Shown here: piece after piece, positions 18,704-32,965 of the stretch
How the letters are laid out: every line of letters begins with the position of its first letter
Numbering within the stretch: position 1 is the stretch's first letter
Assembly: GCA_910576345.1 (NCBI GenBank)
Contig: CAJTIT010000004.1
Coordinates: forward strand, 1 to 64,000
Length of the DNA stretch: 64,000 bases
Source: Erysipelotrichales bacterium
Lineage (GTDB): Bacteria; Bacillota_I; Bacilli_A; Erysipelotrichales; Erysipelotrichaceae
Reading direction: 5' to 3'
Notes under the pieces: generated by a model
Seen by the model: the letters and a program-made list of their open reading frames with translations, nothing else
Databases searched by the model: none
Told to the model about the DNA's origin: nothing
Position numbers and translations under genes: made by a program

Positions 18704-18754
18704 CATAGACGTTACATGTTATAATGATGAAAACGAAAGCATGAGGTGAGGGTC

Positions 18755-19444
18755 ATGTTAAAAATCGCAGTGCTTGAAAAAGAAAGTGTCGCAAAAGATT
18801 TGATTTTTGAATGCGCAAAAATGCTGAATGATATGGAATGGACATTTTCTCACTTTACCAAGATTTCGGAATTTGCGAAAGCGGAAGAATCAGGACAATT
18901 TGATGTTGTATTCTTTCATGAATTATTCTACACACCAAGAGTTTCTGCATCCTTTGTGGAACGTTTTCCACAGCGAATCGTTATTTATTGTATGGAACAA
19001 CTGAACGACATGCAGAAAGAAATCTATCCGATGAATCGTATTTTATTTATACAACGGCGTCAAGTAAAATCAGAAATGATGAGAATCAAAGAACATTTGC
19101 ATTCCCTTTTGCGATCACACAAAGACTATTTGCTTTCTTACAATGGACTTTTGATAGCGATTCGCATACAGGATATTTACTATATTGAAAAAAGCAATAA
19201 AAACTTAATATTTCATACAGTAAGAGGCGTATTCAAAGAACGAAAAACAATGATGCAGGCAGAGGAATATTTTAAGAACTATGATTTCTTACGCATTCAT
19301 GCCAGCTTTTTGGTCAATGTACAGCATATCGTAAAAATACAAAATGATATGATTGAATTGCATCATCAAGAAACACTGCCAATCGCCAGAGCCAGAAAAA
19401 AAGAGATCATTGACTGGTTTCATGCGTATGTAAAAGCAAGATAA
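18755..19444 (+). CDS. LytTR-type regulator with degenerate receiver domain
   Basis: The 229-residue protein has a C-terminal LytTR DNA-binding domain (from about residue 128: LLSYNGLLIAIRIQDIYYIEKSNKNLIFHT..., FLRIHASFLVNVQHI, LPIARARKKEI). The N-terminal 110 residues have a receiver-like pattern, but where the phosphate-accepting Asp is expected the sequence reads DVVFFHELF, so phosphorylation looks unlikely. The start ATG at 18755 follows GAGGTGAG. The gene is followed after 20 bases by the CyuA-type gene, suggesting co-transcription. No sensor kinase is nearby. LytTR proteins bind pairs of short direct repeats; none was identified with certainty here. Confidence 0.78.
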   Translation: MLKIAVLEKESVAKDLIFECAKMLNDMEWTFSHFTKISEFAKAEESGQFDVVFFHELFYTPRVSASFVERFPQRIVIYCMEQLNDMQKEIYPMNRILFIQRRQVKSEMMRIKEHLHSLLRSHKDYLLSYNGLLIAIRIQDIYYIEKSNKNLIFHTVRGVFKERKTMMQAEEYFKNYDFLRIHASFLVNVQHIVKIQNDMIELHHQETLPIARARKKEIIDWFHAYVKAR

Positions 19445-19464
19445 CTATGGAAAGAGGAAAAGGT

Positions 19465-20754
19465 ATGGACAAGAAGATTATGGATGCTTATACATCTATA
19501 TTACATGAAGAACTGATCCCGGCCATGGGATGTAGCGAACCAATCGCCATTGCGTATGCGGGTGCCATTGTAAGAAAGGCGCTGGGTAAACTTCCAAAGC
19601 GCCTACAGCTTGTGATCAGCGGCAATATCATTAAAAATGTCAAGAGCGTGATCGTTCCGCATACCGGTGGAAAAAAAGGAATATCGGCAGCAGTCGCGGC
19701 AGGCATTTGTTATGGGAACGCTGACAAGGAATTGGAAGTTTTATCACAAGCGACATCATCAAATTATCAAATGCTGGATTCATATTTAAATCAAGTGTCC
19801 ATAACGATACAAGAATCGGATGCGAACAGTTCGTTCGATATCCAAATTCATGCATTTGCGGATGATGACAATGCATTTGTACGTATTCTTGGCAATCATA
19901 CAAATGTTATCAAAATTCAAAAAAACAATGATGTTTTCATGGAAAAACCTTATCAGGATCAAGTGATACAAGCGGCAGAAAATCGCAAGCGATTAACCGT
20001 GAAAGACATTGTTGCGTATGCGGATGAAGTCGATTTGGCATTGGTGAATGCTGTAATAAAACGGCAGATAGAATGTAATCAGGCAATCGCAGAAGCTGGT
20101 ATGCATGGAGAATTTGGCGCCAACATCGGGAAAATCTTAATGGATGCTTATGGCAATAGCGTACAAAATCGTGCCAAAGCATATGCCGCAGCTGCATCAG
20201 ATGCACGTATGCACGGATGTGAACTGCCTGTTGTGATCAATTCCGGAAGTGGTAATCAAGGAATCACCTGTAGTGTGCCGGTCATTGAATATGCAAAGGA
20301 ATTACACGCTGATGATGCTTTGTTGTATCGCGCACTCATTGTTTCCAATTTGGTGACCATTCATTTGAAAACGCAGATTGGCTGTTTATCTGCATATTGC
20401 GGCGCTACAAGCGCAGGTGTAGGGGCAGGCGCAGGTGTATGTTACTTATATGGCGGACAATATGATGAAGTGGCGCATACCATTGTCAATGCGTTAGCGA
20501 TCAATTCCGGTATGATATGTGATGGCGCCAAAGCCAGTTGCGCAGCTAAAATTGCATCTGCGGTGGAAGCCGGTTTATTGGGCATGCAGATGTACCAGCA
20601 TCATAGTCAGTTCTATGGCGGCGATGGTATTATTGAAAAAGGCGTGGAGAATACCATTCGTGCAGTTAGTCAAATTGCACGTGTCGGTATGCGCAAAACG
20701 GACCATGAAATCATTCATTTAATGATGGATCCATCTTATTCCAAATGTTCTTAA
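19465..20754 (+). CDS. CyuA/YhaM-family (UPF0597) L-cysteine desulfidase-like protein
   Basis: The 429-residue protein belongs to UPF0597, sometimes labelled serine dehydratase alpha. Its characterised members CyuA and archaeal cysteine desulfidase break L-cysteine into pyruvate, ammonia and sulfide using an oxygen-sensitive iron-sulfur cluster. Conserved stretches include IPAMGCSEPIAIAYAGA, VPHTGGKKGISAAV, SGSGNQGITCSVPV, QIGCLSAYCGATSAGVGAGAG and GMICDGAKASCAAKIASAV; the conserved cysteines fit cluster ligands. The ATG at 19465 follows AGGAAAAGG; an upstream ATG at 19447 has no ribosome site. It lies just after the LytTR gene. The exact substrate is inferred from the family. Confidence 0.82.
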   Translation: MDKKIMDAYTSILHEELIPAMGCSEPIAIAYAGAIVRKALGKLPKRLQLVISGNIIKNVKSVIVPHTGGKKGISAAVAAGICYGNADKELEVLSQATSSNYQMLDSYLNQVSITIQESDANSSFDIQIHAFADDDNAFVRILGNHTNVIKIQKNNDVFMEKPYQDQVIQAAENRKRLTVKDIVAYADEVDLALVNAVIKRQIECNQAIAEAGMHGEFGANIGKILMDAYGNSVQNRAKAYAAAASDARMHGCELPVVINSGSGNQGITCSVPVIEYAKELHADDALLYRALIVSNLVTIHLKTQIGCLSAYCGATSAGVGAGAGVCYLYGGQYDEVAHTIVNALAINSGMICDGAKASCAAKIASAVEAGLLGMQMYQHHSQFYGGDGIIEKGVENTIRAVSQIARVGMRKTDHEIIHLMMDPSYSKCS

Positions 20755-20817
20755 TTTGTGCTTGAGAAATGAAATCAACTGATTTTGCCGTTAAACTTAC
20801 CAAAAAAGCCTTTTAGC

Positions 20818-20845
20818 TTTACGTATAAAGTAGATTGTTTATAAT
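20818..20845 (+). promoter_or_regulatory. predicted promoter of the large non-coding RNA
   Basis: TTTACG at 20818-20823 and a consensus TATAAT at 20840-20845 with 16 bases between. No start codon with an open frame follows. Confidence 0.6.
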
Positions 20846-20851
20846 AAAGGT

Positions 20852-21386
20852 GTAAAAAGAAAGACAAGAAAAGAGAGCGGTGAGAACATGGGAACAGATG
20901 ATCGTTAGATTATAAAAAGCCATCATAAAAAACATAATCTAACATAATTAAAAATGGGCGATGGAACATCGCTATGGGATTCTTATAGGGCATGAGACAA
21001 TCGCATGATGCAGAAAGAACATGTCGCAAGGAATCTTGAAAGAAGATAGGAAAATGATAACCACAATTCTACGATAAACGTTTATCAGAAACAAAGCGCA
21101 GATATAGATGTGGACGATCAATGAGCAGACATTTTGAACAGGTAGAACGTTGAAGTATTGTAGGTATCAAAAGAAGTATCAAGACAAGAAGGATGAAGTG
21201 AATCGGACAAGCATTTCAGAGATTGCGTGTTGATAGTTCAAAATTACAACTGAATAGATAAGAGGAATCGATTATAGAGAGGAATCGATATAGATGTGCA
21301 AACGCAGCGTTTCTAAGTATGAGTGAAACCATGTGTAAACCTATATAATCATAAAGAACAGATGAAAAAGTCTGTTCTTTTTTATT
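20852..21386 (+). ncRNA. candidate large structured non-coding RNA (about 530 nt)
   Basis: No open frame of 60 codons exists on either strand here, yet the interval begins with a promoter and ends with a perfect 10-bp terminator. Local helices are visible: a 10-bp perfect stem gttagattat/ataatctaac (20904-20913 with 20934-20943), gcgatg-gaa-catcgc (20958-20972), gataaac/gtttatc near 21074, and aaacg-cag-cgttt (21300-21312). A possible closing helix pairs ACATGG (20886-20891) with CCATGT (21329-21334). A 12-base motif agaggaatcgat occurs twice (21261 and 21278). Size and layout recall the ornate large RNAs such as OLE, ROOL or GOLLD, but I cannot identify a family. tmRNA, RNase P RNA and SRP RNA signatures are absent. 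Confidence 0.65.
21353..21386 (+). terminator. intrinsic terminator ending the RNA
   Basis: A perfect 10-bp stem aaagaacaga/tctgttcttt with an 8-base loop is followed by a T run. Confidence 0.92.
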
Positions 21387-21654: not shown

Positions 21655-22707
21655 ATGAAGATGAAAAAATACAGTGATATGGAATTGATCACAATGGCAC
21701 AAAATGGAGATGAGGAAGCATTTACCGCACTGTATGAGCGTTATGTGCGGCTGGCATATTTTATTGCGTATAAACTGTGCAAAAATGAAGCAGATTGCGA
21801 AGATGTGGTACAAGATTCGTTTATTCAAATCAAAAACAAAATACAGGATTTGAGAAATCCTGAATTATTTAAGTATTGGCTGAATCGCATTGTTATTTCC
21901 AAGTGTAAAAATTTATTTCGTAAAAATAAATATATGACATATCAAGATGAACATTTTGAAACAAAAACAAATCTGGTGGAAACAAGAACCTATCATTTGC
22001 CGGATGTCACAATGAAATTTTCCAGTGATAAGGATGTGATGAATTATTTTATCAATGAGTTACCGTTGGGTCAAAAAGAGGTTGTGGTGCTGCATTATTT
22101 ACAACAGCTGAGTGTGGAGGAAACGGCCAGTATTTTAAAACTTCCCGAAGGTACGGTCAAAAGTCGACTTTCATATGCTCGTTCCGCTTTAAAAAACAAG
22201 ATTGAGTTATATGAGCGACAAAATGAATGTAAATTGAATTTTCGTTCTGTGGATGCCTTCATCTCTTCTTCTCTTACGTATGCGATGGCGAAAATGGTGC
22301 TTCCGAAATCTTTTATTCCAAATGCTTGGAATTTCAAATTTCATTTTTCTAAAAAAACAGCCGCAATTTCTTTTTCGTGTGCCGCAGCATTTTGTACGAT
22401 TATCGGCGGTGCGTATTTATATGCGGCTAATGATGATGTGGAGGAACAAAAAATTGTAAATCAAGAAAAATTGTTTCCTGTCATTGTTGTGAGGGACAAA
22501 GAAATACGATCGGCAAAATCTGGCTATTTTACCTTGAAAACTTGGGCGCATTGCGAACAGGAAATGCAGGCGTTGGATGATGCATTTTTAAATGATGTCA
22601 ATACGCTGTATCGGGCTATGAAAAAGGATAACAGCAGCTATTATCAAAGTCTTGTGGAGGAAGGCTGGGTTACTTCATTTGAAAGCGTTTATCAAAAAAA
22701 TCATTAA
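21655..22707 (+). CDS. ECF-like sigma factor with C-terminal membrane anchor and external domain
   Basis: The 350-residue protein starts with sigma region 2 (residues about 20-90: FTALYERYVRLAYFIAYKL, ADCEDVVQDSFIQI) and region 4 (about 128-180: LPLGQKEVVVLHYLQQLSVEETASIL, LPEGTVKSRLSYARSALK), so it should bind RNA polymerase core and promoters. Unlike ordinary ECF factors of about 180 residues, it continues with a linker, one membrane helix near residues 235-257 and about 90 outward residues. No separate anti-sigma gene is adjacent. I infer that tethering or the external part controls activity. Two giant surface-protein genes follow in the same direction and are plausible targets. The start follows AGGTGAG. 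Confidence 0.82.
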   Translation: MKMKKYSDMELITMAQNGDEEAFTALYERYVRLAYFIAYKLCKNEADCEDVVQDSFIQIKNKIQDLRNPELFKYWLNRIVISKCKNLFRKNKYMTYQDEHFETKTNLVETRTYHLPDVTMKFSSDKDVMNYFINELPLGQKEVVVLHYLQQLSVEETASILKLPEGTVKSRLSYARSALKNKIELYERQNECKLNFRSVDAFISSSLTYAMAKMVLPKSFIPNAWNFKFHFSKKTAAISFSCAAAFCTIIGGAYLYAANDDVEEQKIVNQEKLFPVIVVRDKEIRSAKSGYFTLKTWAHCEQEMQALDDAFLNDVNTLYRAMKKDNSSYYQSLVEEGWVTSFESVYQKNH

Positions 22708-22846: not shown

Positions 22847-25800
22847 GTGACGAAGAAACTATGGAGTTTGTTGGGATGTTTGATATGTTCGATAGTAGTT
22901 GCATATATGTATGTAGGCAATGATTTTTTTCAGCGGCTGAATGCGCAAAGTGCGCCAACTTTTGAGCTTCCGAAAGGTGCGAAAGTGGTTTTAGGCAAGT
23001 ATAACAATAAAGAAGTAGTATGGGATATAGGGAATAACAATAATAATGGTAATTATGTGCTGATGAGTAGTAAGCCAATCGTGAACAGTATTGCAAAATA
23101 TGATCCGTCAATAGGATGTATTCCGGTTTATCCTAATGATGGTCATGTGATAGCTTGCTTAAAATGTCCTAATACAAAACTTGATAATGAAGTAGGTAAA
23201 ATTGTAAAAAATGATGTGGAGAGCAAATTGTTGGTAAAGGATTTTTTTATTCCAAATTATCAAGAAATAAAAACCGGAGGATCGCTAGGTTTATCAATTT
23301 CTGACCGTGCTTATTTGTCTACATCCGGGATAGCACATTATTGGTTGAACGACAGAGGACTATCATTAGGATGGGGCGATCCTGGCACTATATGGGATGG
23401 TGATCTACAAACGCTTTTGCAAGGTATGAGGGATAGTTATGGAAGTGTGTATGGTTTACCGGAGAGTGATGTTATTTGGGCAGAGGCAGATTACCAATTC
23501 AATAAAAATACTGGCGCTGTCACGACTATAAGAGAATCAGCATTAAGACCTTTTGGTATATTGGATAAGATTAAAGTAAATTTCGCTGCGAATATAGCAT
23601 ATACGGACGGTAATTGGCATCAATATAAAATAGATACTAATAACTTGAGTGAAAACAATGAATTAAATCCAAATAAGTTAAGAGTGCAGTCATCTTTAAC
23701 AGTGTCTTTACAGGATATCAAAAGAAATGATCATAGTACAAATAAAATAATGAAAAATGGTAGTGTTGATTTATCAATAAATGCGAATATAGGCACTAGT
23801 ACAAGAATATCGGTAATCTTATATAATGAGACAGGAACAGATATAAAATATTATAAAATGTTGGAAGTCACAAAAAATGGTACAAATGAGTATGTTTTAG
23901 ATTTAACCGGTGTGGCAACAGGAAAATATCAATTGGCCGTCATTAATGAAGAATATGATGCATCATCTAATTTGCCAGTAGAAAGTTCACCAATATCTGA
24001 TCTGTTGCCTTTAGAAATCGTTGAACCGTTATCTAATTTGTCCTTTACTTCCAAAACAGATTTGAAATTTAATCAGAATGTGAATGTAGGAAATACTATT
24101 GGAACGATATCTTCTCAAAATGGTGCCGGGACACCTGTTTATACAATTATCCCTGATCCGGCGTATCCAAATGAATATACCAACGTAAGTTTAGCAAGTG
24201 ATGGGAAAACAGTAGTAGTAAATGGAGCACCACTTCATGCAGGTACTTATCATTTTAAAATACAGGCACAAGATCAAAATGATGATCCCGATCCAGCTTT
24301 AGAAATAAGTGCATCCTTTACTGTAAATAAAACAAATCTTTCTGTGGCATTTGATGATCCGAATCAAACAAAGAAAAGTATTGCACAAGCGACTACAGGT
24401 TGGAGTGAAACAGCGAGCGTAACGCCAAGTATCGGCGCAAAAGTAACGTATTCAAAAAGCGGTGGAAGTGTCGGCATCATCAATCTTGATCCAGATACAG
24501 GTGCGATAACGTATACAGGCGGTACTGCTTATGGGAAAATCACAATCAAAGCTATCGCAGATGATGATCCAAACAACGGTTATGATGATTATCAAGCTAG
24601 TGAAGTCACGAAGGAAATTGTTATCTATCGAGAAGTGGATGGAAATGTAACTCCGGATAGTGCATCCAGTGATTCCGGTATACCGACATTTAAAACAAGT
24701 GATGCCAATATCAAGCCAAATGGCATCATAGGAACGATACATGGCACAATGGGTACTCCGGACAATATAACAAGCGGATCAACTACATACACATATGGAT
24801 TGAAAAATGTAGATGATCATTCTTATTTCAGTGTAGATAAAAGTACAGGTATCATTAAAACAACAGCTGATTTAAGCGCAACGACAGGAACCTATCAAAT
24901 TATAGTAACTGTCAGTGATAAATGGAGCACAAAAGAAATATCGGTCACAATTAATGTAGGAATGGCGCCAGCGGAGAATTTAAAGTTTTATGAGAATGCC
25001 ACATCCAATACGATGATCACTTCAAAGTCCGCAAGTTTAACCGATACAGGTGTAAGCGTATATGCGACAGTAAAGGGTAGTTCCAATAATAACCCTGTGA
25101 CTTATCGATTGAAAGACGGAGAACCAACAAATGTGATAGATGTGAATCCAAACAGTGGCGCAGTCACAATAAAAAATGTAGGAACAGTTGTGATCGTCGC
25201 AGAAAAACAAGGATCCGGTGGACAAGCTGACGCAATCACAGAATTAACATTCACTGTAACAGCCGGTTCACAAGAATTCATTTATACGGATGTAAGTGGA
25301 AATGAACTGCCAAAGAGTGGAAACAGTTATGATGATTACAGTGAAGTATATGGAAAAGGAAAGACATTTCAATTATATACCTCCGGTAATCCAGTTGGAA
25401 CGGATGTAACGTATGCATTACAAGCAGGCAGTCCTACAGATGTGATATCTGTGGATTCAAATGGATTGGTTTCGATCTATAATGCAAGTATGAATACACA
25501 AATTGGAAAAGTGATTGTGGAAGCGACAAGTCATGATCCAACCGGTAACTACAGCAATAAAACAATCGAACTTCCAATCACAATCACAAAGGCAAATCAA
25601 ACGATATCATTCAAAGATGTCACACCTGCACAAAGCGGAAAAGGCAAAGTAACACCGGTCATCATTACGCAAGACATATCCAGTAATGAAGGTGGCGTAA
25701 GTGTCAATGATACAAGTTACTATATTACGATAGATCCAAGTATACCTACATCTCTTGCATGGACAAGCAATGGTATCGATATAGAATACAATTATGACAA

Positions 25801-27772
25801 AGAAGAAGGAATGGAAATACCGTTACATGTAGAGAAAGCAGGGAATCGAAACTATAACAAAGCAGAAGCGAATGGAAAGATGAGGATCTTAGGACCGGAT
25901 GAAAGTACATTAACGATCAATCGACCGGGAAAGATCGTATATGGAGATCACTTTACATTACGATCCTTACAAGACGACAGTTCAAGTTCCAATGTCAACT
26001 ATACATTTGAAGTGGACAATACGATCTTTGTATCAAGTCCAACTGTGAAAGGAAATCTAGCAGAGTTTGATGCATTGAAATGTAGTAATGGGTCAAAAAT
26101 CAATATCACAGTGACAAGAACGGCAGACAGTGAAGTGACATTAAGTAAGAAGATCACAATCGAAGTATTACCAAAAGACATCAATATCACAATCGATGAT
26201 AAAACGAAACAAAAAGGGGAAGACAATCCGGAACTTACATTTCAAGATTTCACAAGTCAACTGGTTAGCTGGAATGGCGTACAAGATGTGGTAGACAGTG
26301 GTATTGTCAAACTAAGTACCACAGCGACAAAAGATAGTAAAGCAGGAAGCTATCCGATCACAGGCAATACAAAAGAAATGAACACAACGTATCCAAATTA
26401 CAATTTCATCTTCAAAGAAGGCAAGTTGATGGTGGACAGTAACATTGATAAAGATGTGGATGGTGATGGGAAACCGGATTTCAATGATCCGGATGGCGAT
26501 GGATGTCCGGACCTCAATATCAAATGGAAAGACGATAATGGAAATTGGATAATCATCAACGGTGATCGAGATTATGATGGCATACCTGATCTCAATATCG
26601 ATAGTGATGGAGATGGAATACCGGACTTAAACATCGATACAGACCACGATGGAAAACCGGATATCAACCTTGTGATTCTAAAGAAAACAGATTGGAAACC
26701 GACAAAGTGTGTTGTTGTAAGTGACATTGTAAAAGAAGAATATTGTACAGGAACAAGCGCAAAACCACAAATCAATGTGGATACAGACAATGACAATATT
26801 CCTGATATCAATATCGATACAGATGGAGACATGAAGGCAGATCTTAACATTGCCCAATCAGGCTCCACTAAACCAACCATTAATCTATTGCCTATGCATT
26901 CTATATGGAAACCGGATAAAGATTATAAAAAAGATGATTTTCTCTATGATTCTATAGGAGAACACAAACCATTATTAAATATAGATACAGATAACGATGG
27001 AAGACCAGATATCAATTTAGATTTGGATGATGATGGTGAAGCAGATTTGAATATCGATGTGGATGGAGACTATATACCGGATGTCAATATCGACAGTAAG
27101 GGAGATGGCAAGCCAGACGTTAATATAGATAAAGATGGAGATGGTATTCCGGATGAAAACATTATAGAAATTACAGAATGGAAACCAAGTAAAGATGGGA
27201 ATAAAGATGGATTCTTATTTGACACAATGGAGATTGAACAAAAAACAGAATTGGAAGATAACGGAATCAAAATCGAAAAACCGGATGGAACACCATTCTT
27301 ACCAAACTTCGCATTAAAAGTAGAGGATGTAACAGATACAAAACAATCAGAAATTACAGAAGATGCGAAAGAATTCATAAAAGAAACACAAGAAGTAAAG
27401 AAAATATATGATGTAAAACTGTTGAAAGATGGAGTAGAAGTACAACCGGATGGAACATTAAAGATAAAAATACCATATGAAGGAATAAAAAATCCAATTC
27501 TCATCAGAAAGAATGCGAATGGAGAATATGAAAGAATCGAATACAAAACAGAAGAAGGTTATCTCGTATATGAAACAGATGAATTAGGCATTGTATCCAT
27601 CATAGGAGATAAAGAATTTAATACAAGTGTAAAAGGCACTTACACCCCAAACATTGGTGGAGCACTGACAGGAGATGGAACAAATATTTATCTCAATCTG
27701 ATATTTATTCTGATAAGTTTTACATTTCTTGTATATTTAAAACAGAACAAACAGAAAGATACATTTCAATAA
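22847..27772 (+). CDS. giant surface protein with Asp-rich TSP3-like repeats (copy 1)
   Basis: The 1641-residue protein starts at GTG after AAAGGA and AGAGG; no in-frame ATG exists before the signal-anchor sequence (residues about 5-25). The N-terminal 390 residues are specific to this pair. Then come beta-sandwich domains: cadherin-like (about 400-495), further Ig/cadherin-like units to about 1110, and an MBG-type domain starting INITIDDKTKQKGE. Residues about 1200-1440 hold twelve aspartate-rich repeats of the form D-x-DxDGxPDxN, as in thrombospondin type 3 or dockerin calcium loops. A final domain precedes GGALTGDGTN and a membrane helix with a short basic tail, a sorting-signal-like end without LPxTG. 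I infer an adhesin or stalk; ligand unknown. Confidence 0.85.
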   Translation: MTKKLWSLLGCLICSIVVAYMYVGNDFFQRLNAQSAPTFELPKGAKVVLGKYNNKEVVWDIGNNNNNGNYVLMSSKPIVNSIAKYDPSIGCIPVYPNDGHVIACLKCPNTKLDNEVGKIVKNDVESKLLVKDFFIPNYQEIKTGGSLGLSISDRAYLSTSGIAHYWLNDRGLSLGWGDPGTIWDGDLQTLLQGMRDSYGSVYGLPESDVIWAEADYQFNKNTGAVTTIRESALRPFGILDKIKVNFAANIAYTDGNWHQYKIDTNNLSENNELNPNKLRVQSSLTVSLQDIKRNDHSTNKIMKNGSVDLSINANIGTSTRISVILYNETGTDIKYYKMLEVTKNGTNEYVLDLTGVATGKYQLAVINEEYDASSNLPVESSPISDLLPLEIVEPLSNLSFTSKTDLKFNQNVNVGNTIGTISSQNGAGTPVYTIIPDPAYPNEYTNVSLASDGKTVVVNGAPLHAGTYHFKIQAQDQNDDPDPALEISASFTVNKTNLSVAFDDPNQTKKSIAQATTGWSETASVTPSIGAKVTYSKSGGSVGIINLDPDTGAITYTGGTAYGKITIKAIADDDPNNGYDDYQASEVTKEIVIYREVDGNVTPDSASSDSGIPTFKTSDANIKPNGIIGTIHGTMGTPDNITSGSTTYTYGLKNVDDHSYFSVDKSTGIIKTTADLSATTGTYQIIVTVSDKWSTKEISVTINVGMAPAENLKFYENATSNTMITSKSASLTDTGVSVYATVKGSSNNNPVTYRLKDGEPTNVIDVNPNSGAVTIKNVGTVVIVAEKQGSGGQADAITELTFTVTAGSQEFIYTDVSGNELPKSGNSYDDYSEVYGKGKTFQLYTSGNPVGTDVTYALQAGSPTDVISVDSNGLVSIYNASMNTQIGKVIVEATSHDPTGNYSNKTIELPITITKANQTISFKDVTPAQSGKGKVTPVIITQDISSNEGGVSVNDTSYYITIDPSIPTSLAWTSNGIDIEYNYDKEEGMEIPLHVEKAGNRNYNKAEANGKMRILGPDESTLTINRPGKIVYGDHFTLRSLQDDSSSSNVNYTFEVDNTIFVSSPTVKGNLAEFDALKCSNGSKINITVTRTADSEVTLSKKITIEVLPKDINITIDDKTKQKGEDNPELTFQDFTSQLVSWNGVQDVVDSGIVKLSTTATKDSKAGSYPITGNTKEMNTTYPNYNFIFKEGKLMVDSNIDKDVDGDGKPDFNDPDGDGCPDLNIKWKDDNGNWIIINGDRDYDGIPDLNIDSDGDGIPDLNIDTDHDGKPDINLVILKKTDWKPTKCVVVSDIVKEEYCTGTSAKPQINVDTDNDNIPDINIDTDGDMKADLNIAQSGSTKPTINLLPMHSIWKPDKDYKKDDFLYDSIGEHKPLLNIDTDNDGRPDINLDLDDDGEADLNIDVDGDYIPDVNIDSKGDGKPDVNIDKDGDGIPDENIIEITEWKPSKDGNKDGFLFDTMEIEQKTELEDNGIKIEKPDGTPFLPNFALKVEDVTDTKQSEITEDAKEFIKETQEVKKIYDVKLLKDGVEVQPDGTLKIKIPYEGIKNPILIRKNANGEYERIEYKTEEGYLVYETDELGIVSIIGDKEFNTSVKGTYTPNIGGALTGDGTNIYLNLIFILISFTFLVYLKQNKQKDTFQ
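25076..27659 (+). repeat. 2.58-kb near-identical repeat, copy 1
   Basis: This stretch recurs at 30257-32840 with a constant offset and only scattered substitutions. It encodes the middle Ig-like domains, the MBG-type domain, the Asp-rich repeats and the C-terminal domain. Confidence 0.85.
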
Positions 27773-27916: not shown

Positions 27917-27922
27917 ATGGTT

Positions 27923-30900
27923 ATGTGGAAGAAATTGTTGATAACTTTCATTGCATTAACGGGGACTTTTACGGTGGGATATGCTTATTATAATTATGAA
28001 ATGAGTGCCGCTGTAACTCCCTTTCAATTACAAAAGGGCCAGAAGGTGGTATTAGGGACTTATAATGGTAAAGAAGTAGTTTGGGATATTGGTAATAATA
28101 CAAGTGATTATGTGTTAATGAGTAGTAAGCCGCTAAGTTATATTCAAACATATGATTCCATTATACCACTTATGGTAGATACAGTACCTACTTTGAGTGA
28201 GCGTGACAATTACTGTATCCAAGTCCATAGAAGTTCAGATAGTCGTATAGGTTATTGTCCTACACAAAATTTGGAAAATGAAATTGAAAAAATACAATTA
28301 AATAGTTCAGAAAATAAAACAATAGTTCGTAACCCCTTTCTTCCTTCTATTTTCGATGTTAAAACAGGCGGAACTCTTGGATTGACGTTGAGCGATCGAG
28401 CTTATAAAAAGGAAACTGACTACTGGTTAAAAGGAAGAATATCTAGTCATGAATACACAGGAGGGGCAGAAAGCGCAACTTATGGTAATGTAGTCCAAAA
28501 CCCTATACTAGATGCTAGCTGGGGAGAAGCAAATTTTAATTTCTTTGAATTTGATACTGGAACAGTTATAACATCTAGCGAACGAATCGGATGGATGTGG
28601 AGTGTTGATTGGAAAAATACAACAGGTGGAAGAATTTACAAAATGGCCTTAAGACCTTTTTCAGTGATAGATAAAACTAAAGTAAATTTCTCGTCAAATA
28701 CCTCTTATACAGATGGGAATTGGCACAATTATGTAATTGATACAACTAATCTAAATGAAAATAATGAATTGAATCCCAATAAGTTAAGAATTCAATCTTC
28801 GCTCACTGCTACTTTACTGAATATCAAAAGAAATAATCACAATACACAAAAAATTGCAAAAAATCAAAGTGTTGATTTATCTGTAAATGCAAACACAGGA
28901 ACAAATACACAAATATCAGTGATTCTCTATAATGATGCAGGTACAGATATCCAATATTATAAAATGCTAGAGCCTACAAGAAACGGATCAAATGATTATA
29001 CACTGGATATAACAGGTGTTCCTGTAGGGAAATATCAAGTTGCAGTTATCAATGAAGAATATGATGCTTCTTCAAATTTACCAGTAGAAAGCTCTCCGAT
29101 ATCTGATTTATTACCTTTGGAAATTGTAGAACATCATAAGCTTGCTTATACAAAGACACCGCAAAGTGGGGCAAGCAGTGGTAAGGATTATGAGTTCAGT
29201 AAGAATGTGAATGCAGGTCAAGCAGTAGGAAAGATAACAGTCAATCCACTAGGTGTTACACCTCTTACGTATTCTGTTGAAAGTAATGGAGATAATAGCT
29301 ATCAAAACTTTGAAATCGATGGTTTGAATAGTAATAATGAATCAAGCACAAATTCATTGAATGTGAAGATTAAAAGTAATGCGCCTGATTTAGTCAATGG
29401 TGGATTAAAGGCAGGTAGTTATCAATTCTGTGTGAGTAGTGTAGATGCGAATGGAGATCCTACAACGGCTACCTCTGATTCTAAGATATGTACAACGTTT
29501 ACAGTAGAAAAGACCAATCTTGCGATTGCTTTCAATGATCCAGCGATGACAAAGAAATCGATGAATGATGCAGGTACGTCATGGAGTGAAACAGCGACAG
29601 CGAATCCTTCTTATGGTACAAAGGTCACTTATTCAAAAGTTGGTGGAGATATCAGTATGATTGATATTGATCCAGATACTGGTGCGATTACTTACAAAGG
29701 AAACAATGCATTTGGTAAAGTAAAGATACGTGCAACTGTGGATGATGATCCGGCCAGCGGTGAGGATAATTATAATCCTGCCTATGTAGAAAAAGAGATT
29801 GTGATCTATCGAGAAGTCGATGGCGTAGTCACTCCCGATCCTGCCTCCGGTGATACGACGATTCCAACTTTCTCTGCCAGTGATACCAATATTAAAACGG
29901 GTGGAACCATTGGTAAGATACAAGGAACGCTGGGAACACCGGATACGATCGGCGGTTCTACAACGACTTATTCTTATACAATTAAACCAGATCCAAGCAG
30001 TGATGGCAGTATGTTTCAAGTGAATGCAAGTACAGGTGTGATCAAAGCGAATGCCAATCTTGGTGTAGATACTTATAACTTTGTGATCATTGTTTCAGAT
30101 AAGTGGAGTTCCAAAGAAATAGCGGTGACAGTGAATGTAGGAATGGCTCCTGCAGAAAACTTGAAGTTTTATCAAAGTCCTACATCCAATACAATCATTA
30201 CTACAAAATCAGCTGCTTTAACAGATACAGGCGTTACAGTATTTGCGGCAGTGAAAGGTAGTTCCAATAATAACCCTGTGACTTATCGATTGAAAGACGG
30301 AGAACCAACAAATGTGATTGATGTGAATCCAAACAGTGGCGCAGTCACAATAAAAAATGTTGGAACAGTTGTGATCATCGCAGAAAAACAAGGAAGTACC
30401 GGACAAGCAAACGCAATCACAGAATTAACATTCACAGTAACGGCCGGTTCACAAGAATTCATCTATACGGATGCGAGTGGAAATGAACTGCCAAAGAGTG
30501 GAAACAGTTATGATGATTACAGTGAAGTATATGGAAAAGGAAAGACATTCCAGCTATTTACATCAGGAAATCCACCAGGAACAAATGTAACGTATGCATT
30601 ACAAGCAGGAAGTCCGACAGATGTGATCAGTGTTGATCCAAATGGATTGGTTTCGATCTATAATGCAAGTATGAATACACAAATTGGAAAAGTGATCGTA
30701 GAAGCGACCAGTCATGATCCAACCGGTAACTACAGCAATAAAACAATCGAACTTCCAATCACAATCACAAAGGCAAATCAAACGATATCATTCAAAGATG
30801 TCACACCTGCACAAAACGGAAAAGGCAAAGTAACGCCGATCATACTAACACAAGACATATCCGGTAACGAAGGTGGCGTAATCGTCAATGATACAAGTTA

Positions 30901-32965
30901 CTATATTACAATCGATCCAAGTATACCTACATCTCTTGCATGGACAAGCAACGGTATCGATATAGAATACAATTATGACAAAGAAGAAGGAATGGAAATA
31001 CCGTTACATGTAGAGAAAGCAGGAAATCGAAACTATAACAAAGCAGAAGCGAATGGAAAGATGAGGATCTTAGGAACGGATGAAAGTACATTAACGATCA
31101 ATCGACCGGGAAAGATCGTATATGGAGATCACTTTACATTACGCTCCTTACAAGACGACAGTTCAAGTTTGAATGTCAACTATATATTTGAAGTAGACAA
31201 TACGATCTTTGTATCGAATCCAAGCGTAAATAACAATATGGCAGAGTTTGATGCGTTGAAATGCAGTGATGGGTCAAAAATCAATATCACAGTGACAAGA
31301 ACGGCAGACAGTGAAGTGACATTAAGTAAGAAGATCACAATCGAAGTATTACCAAAAGACATCAATATCACAATCGATGATAAAACGAAACAAAAAGGGG
31401 AAGACAATCCGGAACTTACATTTCAAGATTTCACAAGTCAACTGGTTAGCTGGAATGGCGTACAAGATGTGGTAGACAGTGGTATTGTCAAACTAAGTAC
31501 CACAGCGACAAAAGATAGTAAAGCAGGAAGCTATCCGATCACAGGCAATACAAAAGAAATGAACACAACGTATCCAAATTACAATTTCATCTTCAAAGAA
31601 GGCAAGTTAATGGTGGACAGTAACATTGATAAAGATGTGGATGATGATGGAAAACCTGACTTCAATGATCCGGATGGCGATGGATGTCCAGACCTCAATA
31701 TCAAATGGAAAGACGATGATGGAAATTGGATAATCATCAACGGTGATCGAGATTATGATGGCATACCTGATCTCAATATCGATAGTGATGGAGATGGAAT
31801 ACCAGACTTAAACATCGATACAGACCACGATGGAAAACCTGATATCAATCTTGTGATTCTTAAGAAAACAGATTGGAAACCGACAAAGTGTGTTGTTGTA
31901 AGTGACATTGTAAAAGAAGAATATTGTACAGGAACAAGCGTAAAACCACAAATCAATGTGGATACAGACAATGACAATATTCCTGATATCAATATCGATA
32001 CAGATGGCGACATGAAGGCAGATCTTAACATTGCCCAATCAGGCTCCACTAAACCAACCATTAATCTATTGCCTATGCATTCTATATGGAAACCGGATAA
32101 AGATTATAAAAAAGATGATTTCCTCTATGATTCTATAGGAGAACACAAACCATTATTAAATATAGATACAGATAACGATGGAAGACCAGATATCAATTTA
32201 GATTTGGATGATGATGGTGAAGCAGATTTGAATATCGATGTGGATGGAGACTATATACCGGATGTCAATATCGACAGTAAGGGAGATGGCAAGCCAGACG
32301 TTAATATAGATAAAGATGGAGATGGTATTCCGGATGAAAACATTATAGAAATTACGGAATGGAGACCAAACAAAGATGGGAATAAAGATGGATTCTTATT
32401 TGACACAATGGAAATTGAACAAAAAACAGAATTGGAAGATAACGGAGTCAAAGTAGAAAAACCGGATGGAACACCATTCTTACCAAACTTCGCATTAAAA
32501 GTAGAGGATGTAACAGATACAAAACAATCAGAAATTACAGAAGATGCGAAAGAATTCATAGAAGAAACACAAGAAGTAAAGAAAGTATATGATGTAAAAC
32601 TGTTGAAAGATGGAGTAGAAGTACAACCGGATGGAACATTAAAGATAAAAATACCATATGAAGGAATAAAAAATCCAATTCTCATCAGAAAGAATGCGAA
32701 TGGAGAATATGAAAGAATCGAATACAAAACAGAAGAAGGTTATCTCGTATATGAAACAGATGAATTAGGCATTGTATCCATCATAGGAGATAAAGAATTT
32801 GAGACCAGTGTAAAAGGCACTTACACCCCAAACATTGGTGGCGCCATCACCGGGAATCAAATAAATACAAATTTTTTCCTTGAGATGTGCATCTCATCAT
32901 TAAGTTTGATTGCCTATTTATTATATAAAAGAAATAAACAAAATATTGAGAGTATCAACAAATAA
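27923..32965 (+). CDS. giant surface protein with Asp-rich TSP3-like repeats (copy 2)
   Basis: The 1680-residue paralogue of the preceding gene has the same plan: signal anchor (MWKKLLITFIALTGTFTVGY), a diverged N-terminal region, cadherin-like and Ig-like domains, an MBG-type domain, twelve aspartate-rich repeats and a C-terminal membrane helix preceded by GGAITGN. From about 30257 to 32840 the DNA is nearly identical to 25076-27659 of copy 1 with a constant offset of 5181 bases, while upstream the two differ clearly. The ATG at 27923 is chosen because its distance from AAAGGA equals that in copy 1; ATG 27917 is closer. It is probably calcium-stabilised and surface exposed. Ligand unknown. 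Confidence 0.85.
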   Translation: MWKKLLITFIALTGTFTVGYAYYNYEMSAAVTPFQLQKGQKVVLGTYNGKEVVWDIGNNTSDYVLMSSKPLSYIQTYDSIIPLMVDTVPTLSERDNYCIQVHRSSDSRIGYCPTQNLENEIEKIQLNSSENKTIVRNPFLPSIFDVKTGGTLGLTLSDRAYKKETDYWLKGRISSHEYTGGAESATYGNVVQNPILDASWGEANFNFFEFDTGTVITSSERIGWMWSVDWKNTTGGRIYKMALRPFSVIDKTKVNFSSNTSYTDGNWHNYVIDTTNLNENNELNPNKLRIQSSLTATLLNIKRNNHNTQKIAKNQSVDLSVNANTGTNTQISVILYNDAGTDIQYYKMLEPTRNGSNDYTLDITGVPVGKYQVAVINEEYDASSNLPVESSPISDLLPLEIVEHHKLAYTKTPQSGASSGKDYEFSKNVNAGQAVGKITVNPLGVTPLTYSVESNGDNSYQNFEIDGLNSNNESSTNSLNVKIKSNAPDLVNGGLKAGSYQFCVSSVDANGDPTTATSDSKICTTFTVEKTNLAIAFNDPAMTKKSMNDAGTSWSETATANPSYGTKVTYSKVGGDISMIDIDPDTGAITYKGNNAFGKVKIRATVDDDPASGEDNYNPAYVEKEIVIYREVDGVVTPDPASGDTTIPTFSASDTNIKTGGTIGKIQGTLGTPDTIGGSTTTYSYTIKPDPSSDGSMFQVNASTGVIKANANLGVDTYNFVIIVSDKWSSKEIAVTVNVGMAPAENLKFYQSPTSNTIITTKSAALTDTGVTVFAAVKGSSNNNPVTYRLKDGEPTNVIDVNPNSGAVTIKNVGTVVIIAEKQGSTGQANAITELTFTVTAGSQEFIYTDASGNELPKSGNSYDDYSEVYGKGKTFQLFTSGNPPGTNVTYALQAGSPTDVISVDPNGLVSIYNASMNTQIGKVIVEATSHDPTGNYSNKTIELPITITKANQTISFKDVTPAQNGKGKVTPIILTQDISGNEGGVIVNDTSYYITIDPSIPTSLAWTSNGIDIEYNYDKEEGMEIPLHVEKAGNRNYNKAEANGKMRILGTDESTLTINRPGKIVYGDHFTLRSLQDDSSSLNVNYIFEVDNTIFVSNPSVNNNMAEFDALKCSDGSKINITVTRTADSEVTLSKKITIEVLPKDINITIDDKTKQKGEDNPELTFQDFTSQLVSWNGVQDVVDSGIVKLSTTATKDSKAGSYPITGNTKEMNTTYPNYNFIFKEGKLMVDSNIDKDVDDDGKPDFNDPDGDGCPDLNIKWKDDDGNWIIINGDRDYDGIPDLNIDSDGDGIPDLNIDTDHDGKPDINLVILKKTDWKPTKCVVVSDIVKEEYCTGTSVKPQINVDTDNDNIPDINIDTDGDMKADLNIAQSGSTKPTINLLPMHSIWKPDKDYKKDDFLYDSIGEHKPLLNIDTDNDGRPDINLDLDDDGEADLNIDVDGDYIPDVNIDSKGDGKPDVNIDKDGDGIPDENIIEITEWRPNKDGNKDGFLFDTMEIEQKTELEDNGVKVEKPDGTPFLPNFALKVEDVTDTKQSEITEDAKEFIEETQEVKKVYDVKLLKDGVEVQPDGTLKIKIPYEGIKNPILIRKNANGEYERIEYKTEEGYLVYETDELGIVSIIGDKEFETSVKGTYTPNIGGAITGNQINTNFFLEMCISSLSLIAYLLYKRNKQNIESINK
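30257..32840 (+). repeat. 2.58-kb near-identical repeat, copy 2
   Basis: Partner of 25076-27659. The sharp drop in similarity upstream and after the last domain suggests gene conversion or a recent recombination rather than simple ageing of a tandem duplicate. Confidence 0.85.

Follow-up and report, generated by a model that had tools for sequence, protein, structure and literature searches.

VirR of Clostridium perfringens is a member of the LytTR-type family of transcription regulators. Large regulatory RNAs driven by such proteins are known in depth from two pathogens. The first is VR-RNA of C. perfringens, controlled by VirR-VirS (PMC4963840, PMC2838878), a stand-alone RNA of 386 nt that contains an ORF (hyp7) and has two direct repeats with 21-bp spacing just upstream of its -35 element; VirR sites read CCAnTT-N15-CCAGTT (PMC4963840). 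The second is RNAIII of the Staphylococcus aureus agr system (PMC7602753), a structured RNA of about 500 nt with an ORF in its 5' part, found in the same locus as its LytTR regulator AgrA. LytTR Regulatory Systems (LRS; PMC6193735) also place a LytTR regulator over direct repeats (two 9-bp units separated by 12 bp, most often some 10 bp upstream of the -35), yet what they control are protein operons, and the regulator is coupled to an inhibitor protein in the membrane. Among large structured RNAs in general, OLE, ROOL and GOLLD occur mostly in Gram-positive bacteria or their phages.

The window analyzed here, a 64,000-nt stretch of DNA from an Erysipelotrichales bacterium, holds a single locus that unites a LytTR-type regulator gene, predicted binding sites and a structured RNA of about 530 nt. 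Its layout follows VR-RNA in the spacing and place of the direct repeats and in a stand-alone RNA of several hundred nucleotides with an ORF, and follows RNAIII in having the regulator in the same locus. The likeness to VR-RNA is proposed for working and layout, and the Rfam covariance model of RNAIII has no match in the window, the interval or 18 homologous loci. Among the differences, VirR is a phosphorylated response regulator that has a kinase (VirS) and several direct targets and is encoded away from VR-RNA. AgrA works with a kinase and a peptide signal, RNAIII is transcribed divergently from agrBDCA, and its ORF codes for a small toxin (delta-haemolysin). In contrast to the LRS, the output would be an RNA. 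Inspection by eye of neighboring ORFs at 13 loci showed no transmembrane-inhibitor gene. From comparative sequence analysis, we think it likely that the locus encodes a regulator-RNA pair in which the LytTR protein activates a stand-alone structured RNA acting in trans. Our best reading is that the RNA would work like VR-RNA or RNAIII, with common descent no part of the claim. The features of the locus are as follows.

18755-19444, + strand: LytTR-type transcription regulator gene (Pfam LytTR, E=3e-16; possible GTG start at 18746)
19447-20754, + strand: SDH_alpha/UPF0597-like gene between regulator and RNA (Pfam SDH_alpha)
20779-20789, + strand: predicted LytTR box 1 (CTGATTTTGCC), a direct repeat 21 bp from box 2
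20800-20810, + strand: predicted LytTR box 2 (CCAAAAAAGCC), close upstream of the -35, with the spacing of VirR boxes and LytTR operon repeats
20818-20845, + strand: promoter TTTACG-16-TATAAT (-35 at 20818-20823, -10 at 20840-20845), conserved in homologues
20852-21386, + strand: large structured RNA, transcription unit from approximate start site to terminator, about 530 nt (promoter, terminator, homologues in about 19 genera)
20872-20894, + strand: conserved 5' leader that includes a Shine-Dalgarno-like GGTGAG and the start codon (at most 3 mismatches at the regulator loci of 25 family genomes)
20888-20908, + strand: mini-ORF of 6 codons, MGTDDR stop (early in-frame stop kept in homologues)
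20904-20943, + strand: helix P1 (20904-20913 with 20934-20943), containing the mini-ORF stop codon (covariation, stem scan)
20958-20972, + strand: hairpin P2, in the same place as the P2 hairpin of homologues
20976-21037, + strand: predicted P3 region, GGGATTCTT ... AAGGAATCTT with an inner helix (fold of the window RNA; P3 covariation in relatives)
21033-21047, + strand: possible P4 hairpin ATCTT-GAAAG-AAGAT (from sequence; P4 covaries in relatives)
21246-21256, + strand: conserved 3' motif ACAACTGAATA (pattern A[N]AA[N]TGAAT[A/C])
21353-21386, + strand: intrinsic terminator (stem 21353-21380, then U's)

A sequence-only reading of this DNA had proposed a large structured RNA framed by a promoter and a terminator, and homologues and compensatory base changes now support that proposal. 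The two promoter hexamers and their 16-bp spacing are present as described, the terminator stem has 10 Watson-Crick pairs and one U-G pair followed by U's, and neither strand of 20852-21386 carries an ORF of at least 60 aa. The smaller elements were also located, comprising the 10-bp perfect hairpin (GTTAGATTAT/ATAATCTAAC, the later P1), the 6-bp tri-loop hairpin GCGATG-GAA-CATCGC at P2, a self-complementary element that is the palindrome GATAAACGTTTATC at 21073-21086, and the 12-base motif GATATAGATGTG at both 21101 and 21287. The possible helix joining both ends appears in the predicted minimum-energy fold (about 20880-20891 with 21328-21340), but its 3' arm sits in an extension special to the RNA of the window and is thus beyond the reach of comparison with relatives. 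That reading overlooked the regulator gene, the LytTR boxes and the mini-ORF, which account for most of what was observed. Over its 531 nt, the strand reaches a folding energy of -109.6 kcal/mol, where dinucleotide shuffles average -90.6 (z = -3.64), and none of 100 shuffles matches its stability. The extension (21257-21352) separates the 3' motif from the terminator by about 85 extra nt and holds both occurrences of GAGGAATCGAT (at 21262 and 21279); the ACCATGTG of this RNA is able to pair with the start region of the mini-ORF.

By sequence comparison, the interval encodes a real family of large folded RNAs in gut Erysipelotrichaceae that has not been listed before. Blastn over 60 related genomes gave a match limited to the first 60-80 nt of the RNA, and so brought to light a conserved leader directly following the promoter (AGAGAGCGGTGRGAANATG). 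Scanning 196 family genomes for this leader (AGAGAGCGGTGAGAANATGGGAA, up to 3 mismatches) matched 28 genomes, and 25 of these are true loci, at regulator loci; the reversed pattern, used as a control on the same genomes, matched none. Matches in the other three (G117, G024 and G119) look like chance, with no regulator adjoining. Across 84,980 species, the leader was found in Faecalitalea, Absicoccus, Merdibacter, Holdemanella, Faecalicoccus, Longicatena, Amedibacillus and other Erysipelotrichaceae, plus apparent chance matches without an adjoining regulator in Terriglobus, Nitrospira, and a Lachnospiraceae and an Oscillospiraceae MAG. A covariance model built from the second subtype alone found two further genomes (G017 and G028) and this window (E = 7e-4), so that both subtypes belong to one family; in a smaller search, the remaining members of subtype A scored between E 1e-3 and 2e-2. 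In total, about 30 homologues are spread over about 19 genera of the single family Erysipelotrichaceae, with lengths from about 240 to 890 nt (nearly fourfold). All 30 RNAs have a negative folding z against shuffles, most below -1.4. Three divergent RNAs among them were located by looking beside the regulator and are only weakly more stable than shuffles (z -0.65 to -1.65). In Merdibacter massiliensis (L040/L054), the RNA is present in two tandem copies 1.4 kb apart, the second being about 240 nt long with its own double box and terminator.

The homologues have in common the leader, helices that show compensatory changes, the 3' motif and the terminator, arranged in the order TATAAT, leader, mini-ORF, P1, P2, P3 (then P4 and P5 in subtype A), variable body, 3' motif and terminator; subtype A typically has RWARGTGTAAA between TATAAT and the leader. 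In P1, with arms picked by hand, 8 of 8 pairs are changed on both sides over 17 RNAs, and a blind scan for the best stem beside the stop codon recovers the helix in most RNAs. Both-sided changes among relatives affect 5 of 5 pairs of P3 and one pair of P2, with 95% of cells paired, compared with 27-46% after sliding. Run without guidance on four subtype-A members, RNAalifold returned P2, P3 and P4 with six compensated pairs. In the window RNA, the possible P4 overlaps the 3' arm of P3 and would be an alternative to it. The 3' motif, summarized over the family as A[C/A]AA[N]TGAATA, occurs in some 22 of the 30 RNAs, mostly 42-61 nt before the 3' end but 138 nt in the window RNA. Past about 250 nt, the body is poorly conserved and cannot be aligned between genera, so a common global fold is unproven.

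The RNA is absent from Rfam 15 and from the open literature searched; a set of 3161 human-microbiome RNA candidates (PMC8040213, supplementary) lay outside that search and may contain it. No Rfam 15 model matched anywhere in the window at gathering thresholds, a relaxed threshold gave nothing but chance matches for the interval, and 18 homologous loci searched at gathering thresholds matched no family other than nearby tRNAs, so the Rfam comparison proposed earlier links neither the interval nor its relatives to any described family. It is therefore missing from the current annotation of widespread gut genera, among them Holdemanella, Faecalitalea, Faecalicoccus and Amedibacillus. Blastn of the RNA found no copy in phages and plasmids. 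The likeness to OLE, ROOL and GOLLD suggested earlier found no support: besides the lack of a covariance-model match, the leader pattern was found in none of 2.9 million viral contigs, and the setting differs, with a LytTR-type promoter, a mini-ORF and highly variable length. The RNA might still resemble those families in action, as a structured ribonucleoprotein or cage whose supply is controlled by the LytTR protein and which does not pair with mRNAs. Its large size, several covarying helices and strong folding in nearly all homologues would suit this, as would a duplex-energy screen of 50 start regions in the window in which no targets are visible, nothing going beyond the z of -2.6 expected among 50. 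We nevertheless regard this explanation as unlikely, as the missing Rfam and viral matches speak against it, a mini-ORF and a LytTR promoter suit regulatory RNAs better, and a length of 240-890 nt with a poorly conserved body argues against a fixed architecture. A CsrA sponge was also considered and rejected, as GGA motifs show no convincing excess over dinucleotide shuffles (z -1.1 to 2.0).

The evidence for a LytTR-controlled regulatory RNA begins at the promoter. A gapless alignment of about 25 promoters on the -10 places two direct repeats (approximately ACCRATTTTKCC) at fixed distances upstream of it. Identity between the repeats peaks sharply at exactly 21-bp spacing, as in the layout of LytTR, VirR and AgrA sites (6.2 of 11, versus 1.9-4.4 at other spacings), a value equalled in 0 of 5000 shuffles by a statistic that ignores relatedness. 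In the genus of the window, a double box with 0-1 mismatch occurs once per genome, at the RNA promoter, in five of five RNA-bearing genomes, and is absent from the two genomes of the genus without the RNA; matches with 3 mismatches look like background. The regulator therefore seems devoted to the RNA, at least in this genus.

The regulator itself combines a receiver-like N-terminal domain without a canonical phosphorylation site and a C-terminal LytTR DNA-binding domain. Pfam matched no receiver domain; in the AlphaFold model (pLDDT 91), LytTR comes after a receiver fold, with ComE, the LytTR domain of AgrA and the orphan regulator HP1043 as best structural matches in the PDB. At the end of strand 3, where the phosphorylated Asp is expected, the window protein has His and others have Asn, Gln or Asp. 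In many species the regulator has lost the canonical site, and it probably has a single direct target. Its profile gives strong matches (E below 1e-40, one each) in 45 of 273 family genomes, and these 45 include every one of the 27 genomes with an independently found RNA (Fisher P 1e-25 by genome and 2e-9 by genus, a test that takes no account of relatedness); beyond the family, its matches are limited to generic LytTR proteins (E about 1e-21). About 15 regulator-bearing genomes have no recognizable RNA beside the regulator (among the loci are L113-L119, L121, L123-L125 and L127, in genera g2, g4, g71 and parts of g1 and g75). The regulator may serve other functions there, or the RNA may have been lost or have diverged.

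In every RNA-bearing genus the LytTR regulator lies upstream of the RNA, almost always directly, with 75-147 bp from its stop codon to the leader. Exceptions are G081 (about 510 bp) and the genus of the window (about 1.46-1.49 kb), where the SDH_alpha-like gene has come between them; this gene is absent from the position in other genera and is a neighbor, not part of the system. The order murA-LytTR-RNA is kept across subtypes, and this constancy would fit an autoregulatory or murA/regulator-linked element in which the RNA feeds back on the LytTR-murA operon, as would the duplex with the LytTR start region, fifth lowest in z among 50 window genes. We consider such feedback quite improbable: that z (-1.64) is not significant, the RNA lies downstream of the operon with its own promoter and terminator, and several genera keep the regulator without an adjoining RNA. 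Downstream, the genes differ (names assigned by eye), including rsmG-parB-parA, HAD-cdaA-cdaR, a YggS-like gene, rubredoxin and, in the window, an ECF sigma factor. A link between the RNA and the adjacent sigma-factor gene is thus unsupported and the adjacency incidental, as homologous RNAs precede unrelated genes while the upstream regulator is constant, and regulation in cis is unlikely. A riboswitch or attenuator was rejected on the grounds that every RNA stops at a terminator of its own and that the genes beyond it vary.

The mini-ORF is the other constant of the 5' region. A Shine-Dalgarno-like GGTGAG or GGTGGG precedes its ATG (GTG in G018), and an in-frame stop follows after 3-7 codons in 29 of 30 RNAs, as against 40% of random positions in the same RNAs; the 30 are related sequences and not independent cases. 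All three stops (TAA, TAG and TGA) are used, and the start and early stop are retained even in G156, G018 and G142, where the leader is changed. The stop falls between 5 nt inside P1 and a few nt before it. This conserved ribosome-binding site, start and stop would be expected if the RNA were a messenger, with the mini-ORF as product or leader-peptide attenuator and the remainder an untranslated tail. That is very doubtful, as the peptides have just 3-7 residues and change freely (MGTDDR, MGTIER, MGSFRG, MTIQ, MTI and MTRDL among others), so that selection hardly acts on the peptide itself; moreover, no downstream gene is held in common, and helices covary downstream of the mini-ORF. What counts is probably the act of initiation or termination rather than the peptide. 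A diverged housekeeping RNA or a neutral intergenic stretch has size alone in its favor and practically no likelihood, given that RNase P RNA and tmRNA were located elsewhere in the same genome (260 and 134 bits), and that compensatory changes and a conserved leader exclude neutrality.

For the regulator-RNA pair, we propose on strong evidence from sequence that a signal reaches the LytTR-family protein encoded at 18755-19444, which would bind the tandem boxes (20779-20810) and activate, rather than repress, transcription of the RNA. The transcript, of about 530 nt, would end at its own terminator as a stand-alone molecule. Action in trans is most likely, by analogy with VR-RNA and RNAIII and given that no downstream gene is constant, and would most likely consist of pairing with or remodelling mRNAs, as those two RNAs do. 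Long untranslated stretches in Bacillus are stabilized when a ribosome-binding site lies upstream of them, close to the 5' end (PMC3997798). A ribosome engaged on the mini-ORF probably protects the RNA from 5' exonuclease, much like the STAB-SD/RBS roadblocks of Bacillus. With the stop in or beside P1, a terminating ribosome should also melt this helix, which may couple the fold of the RNA to translation. More tentatively, and on balance doubtfully, the family could represent a class of ribosome-gated regulatory RNAs, in which a phosphorylation-independent LytTR regulator is devoted to a single RNA whose active fold depends on whether a ribosome initiates or terminates on a P1-overlapping ORF of 3-7 codons; if so, the RNA would read the state of translation as well as the signal of the regulator. 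The fusion of the mini-ORF to the first helix makes ribosome gating of the fold and life of a regulatory RNA directly testable. Beside the two RNAs of pathogens, the Erysipelotrichaceae RNA appears to be an independent instance, spread family-wide among gut commensals.

Some surroundings of the RNA deserve mention in their own right. The ECF sigma-factor gene of the window (21655-22707), which is not linked to the RNA in relatives, encodes a protein whose C-terminal extension apparently contains a membrane segment. Behind it lie two giant surface proteins of 1641 and 1682 aa (22847-27772 and 27917-32965), tandem near-duplicates with MBG and cadherin-like domains and DxDxDGxPD-type repeats. In three subtype-B loci (L139, L140 and L142), the RNA sits between murA-LytTR and an HAD gene followed by the apparent c-di-AMP synthase genes cdaA-cdaR, a cell-wall-related setting.
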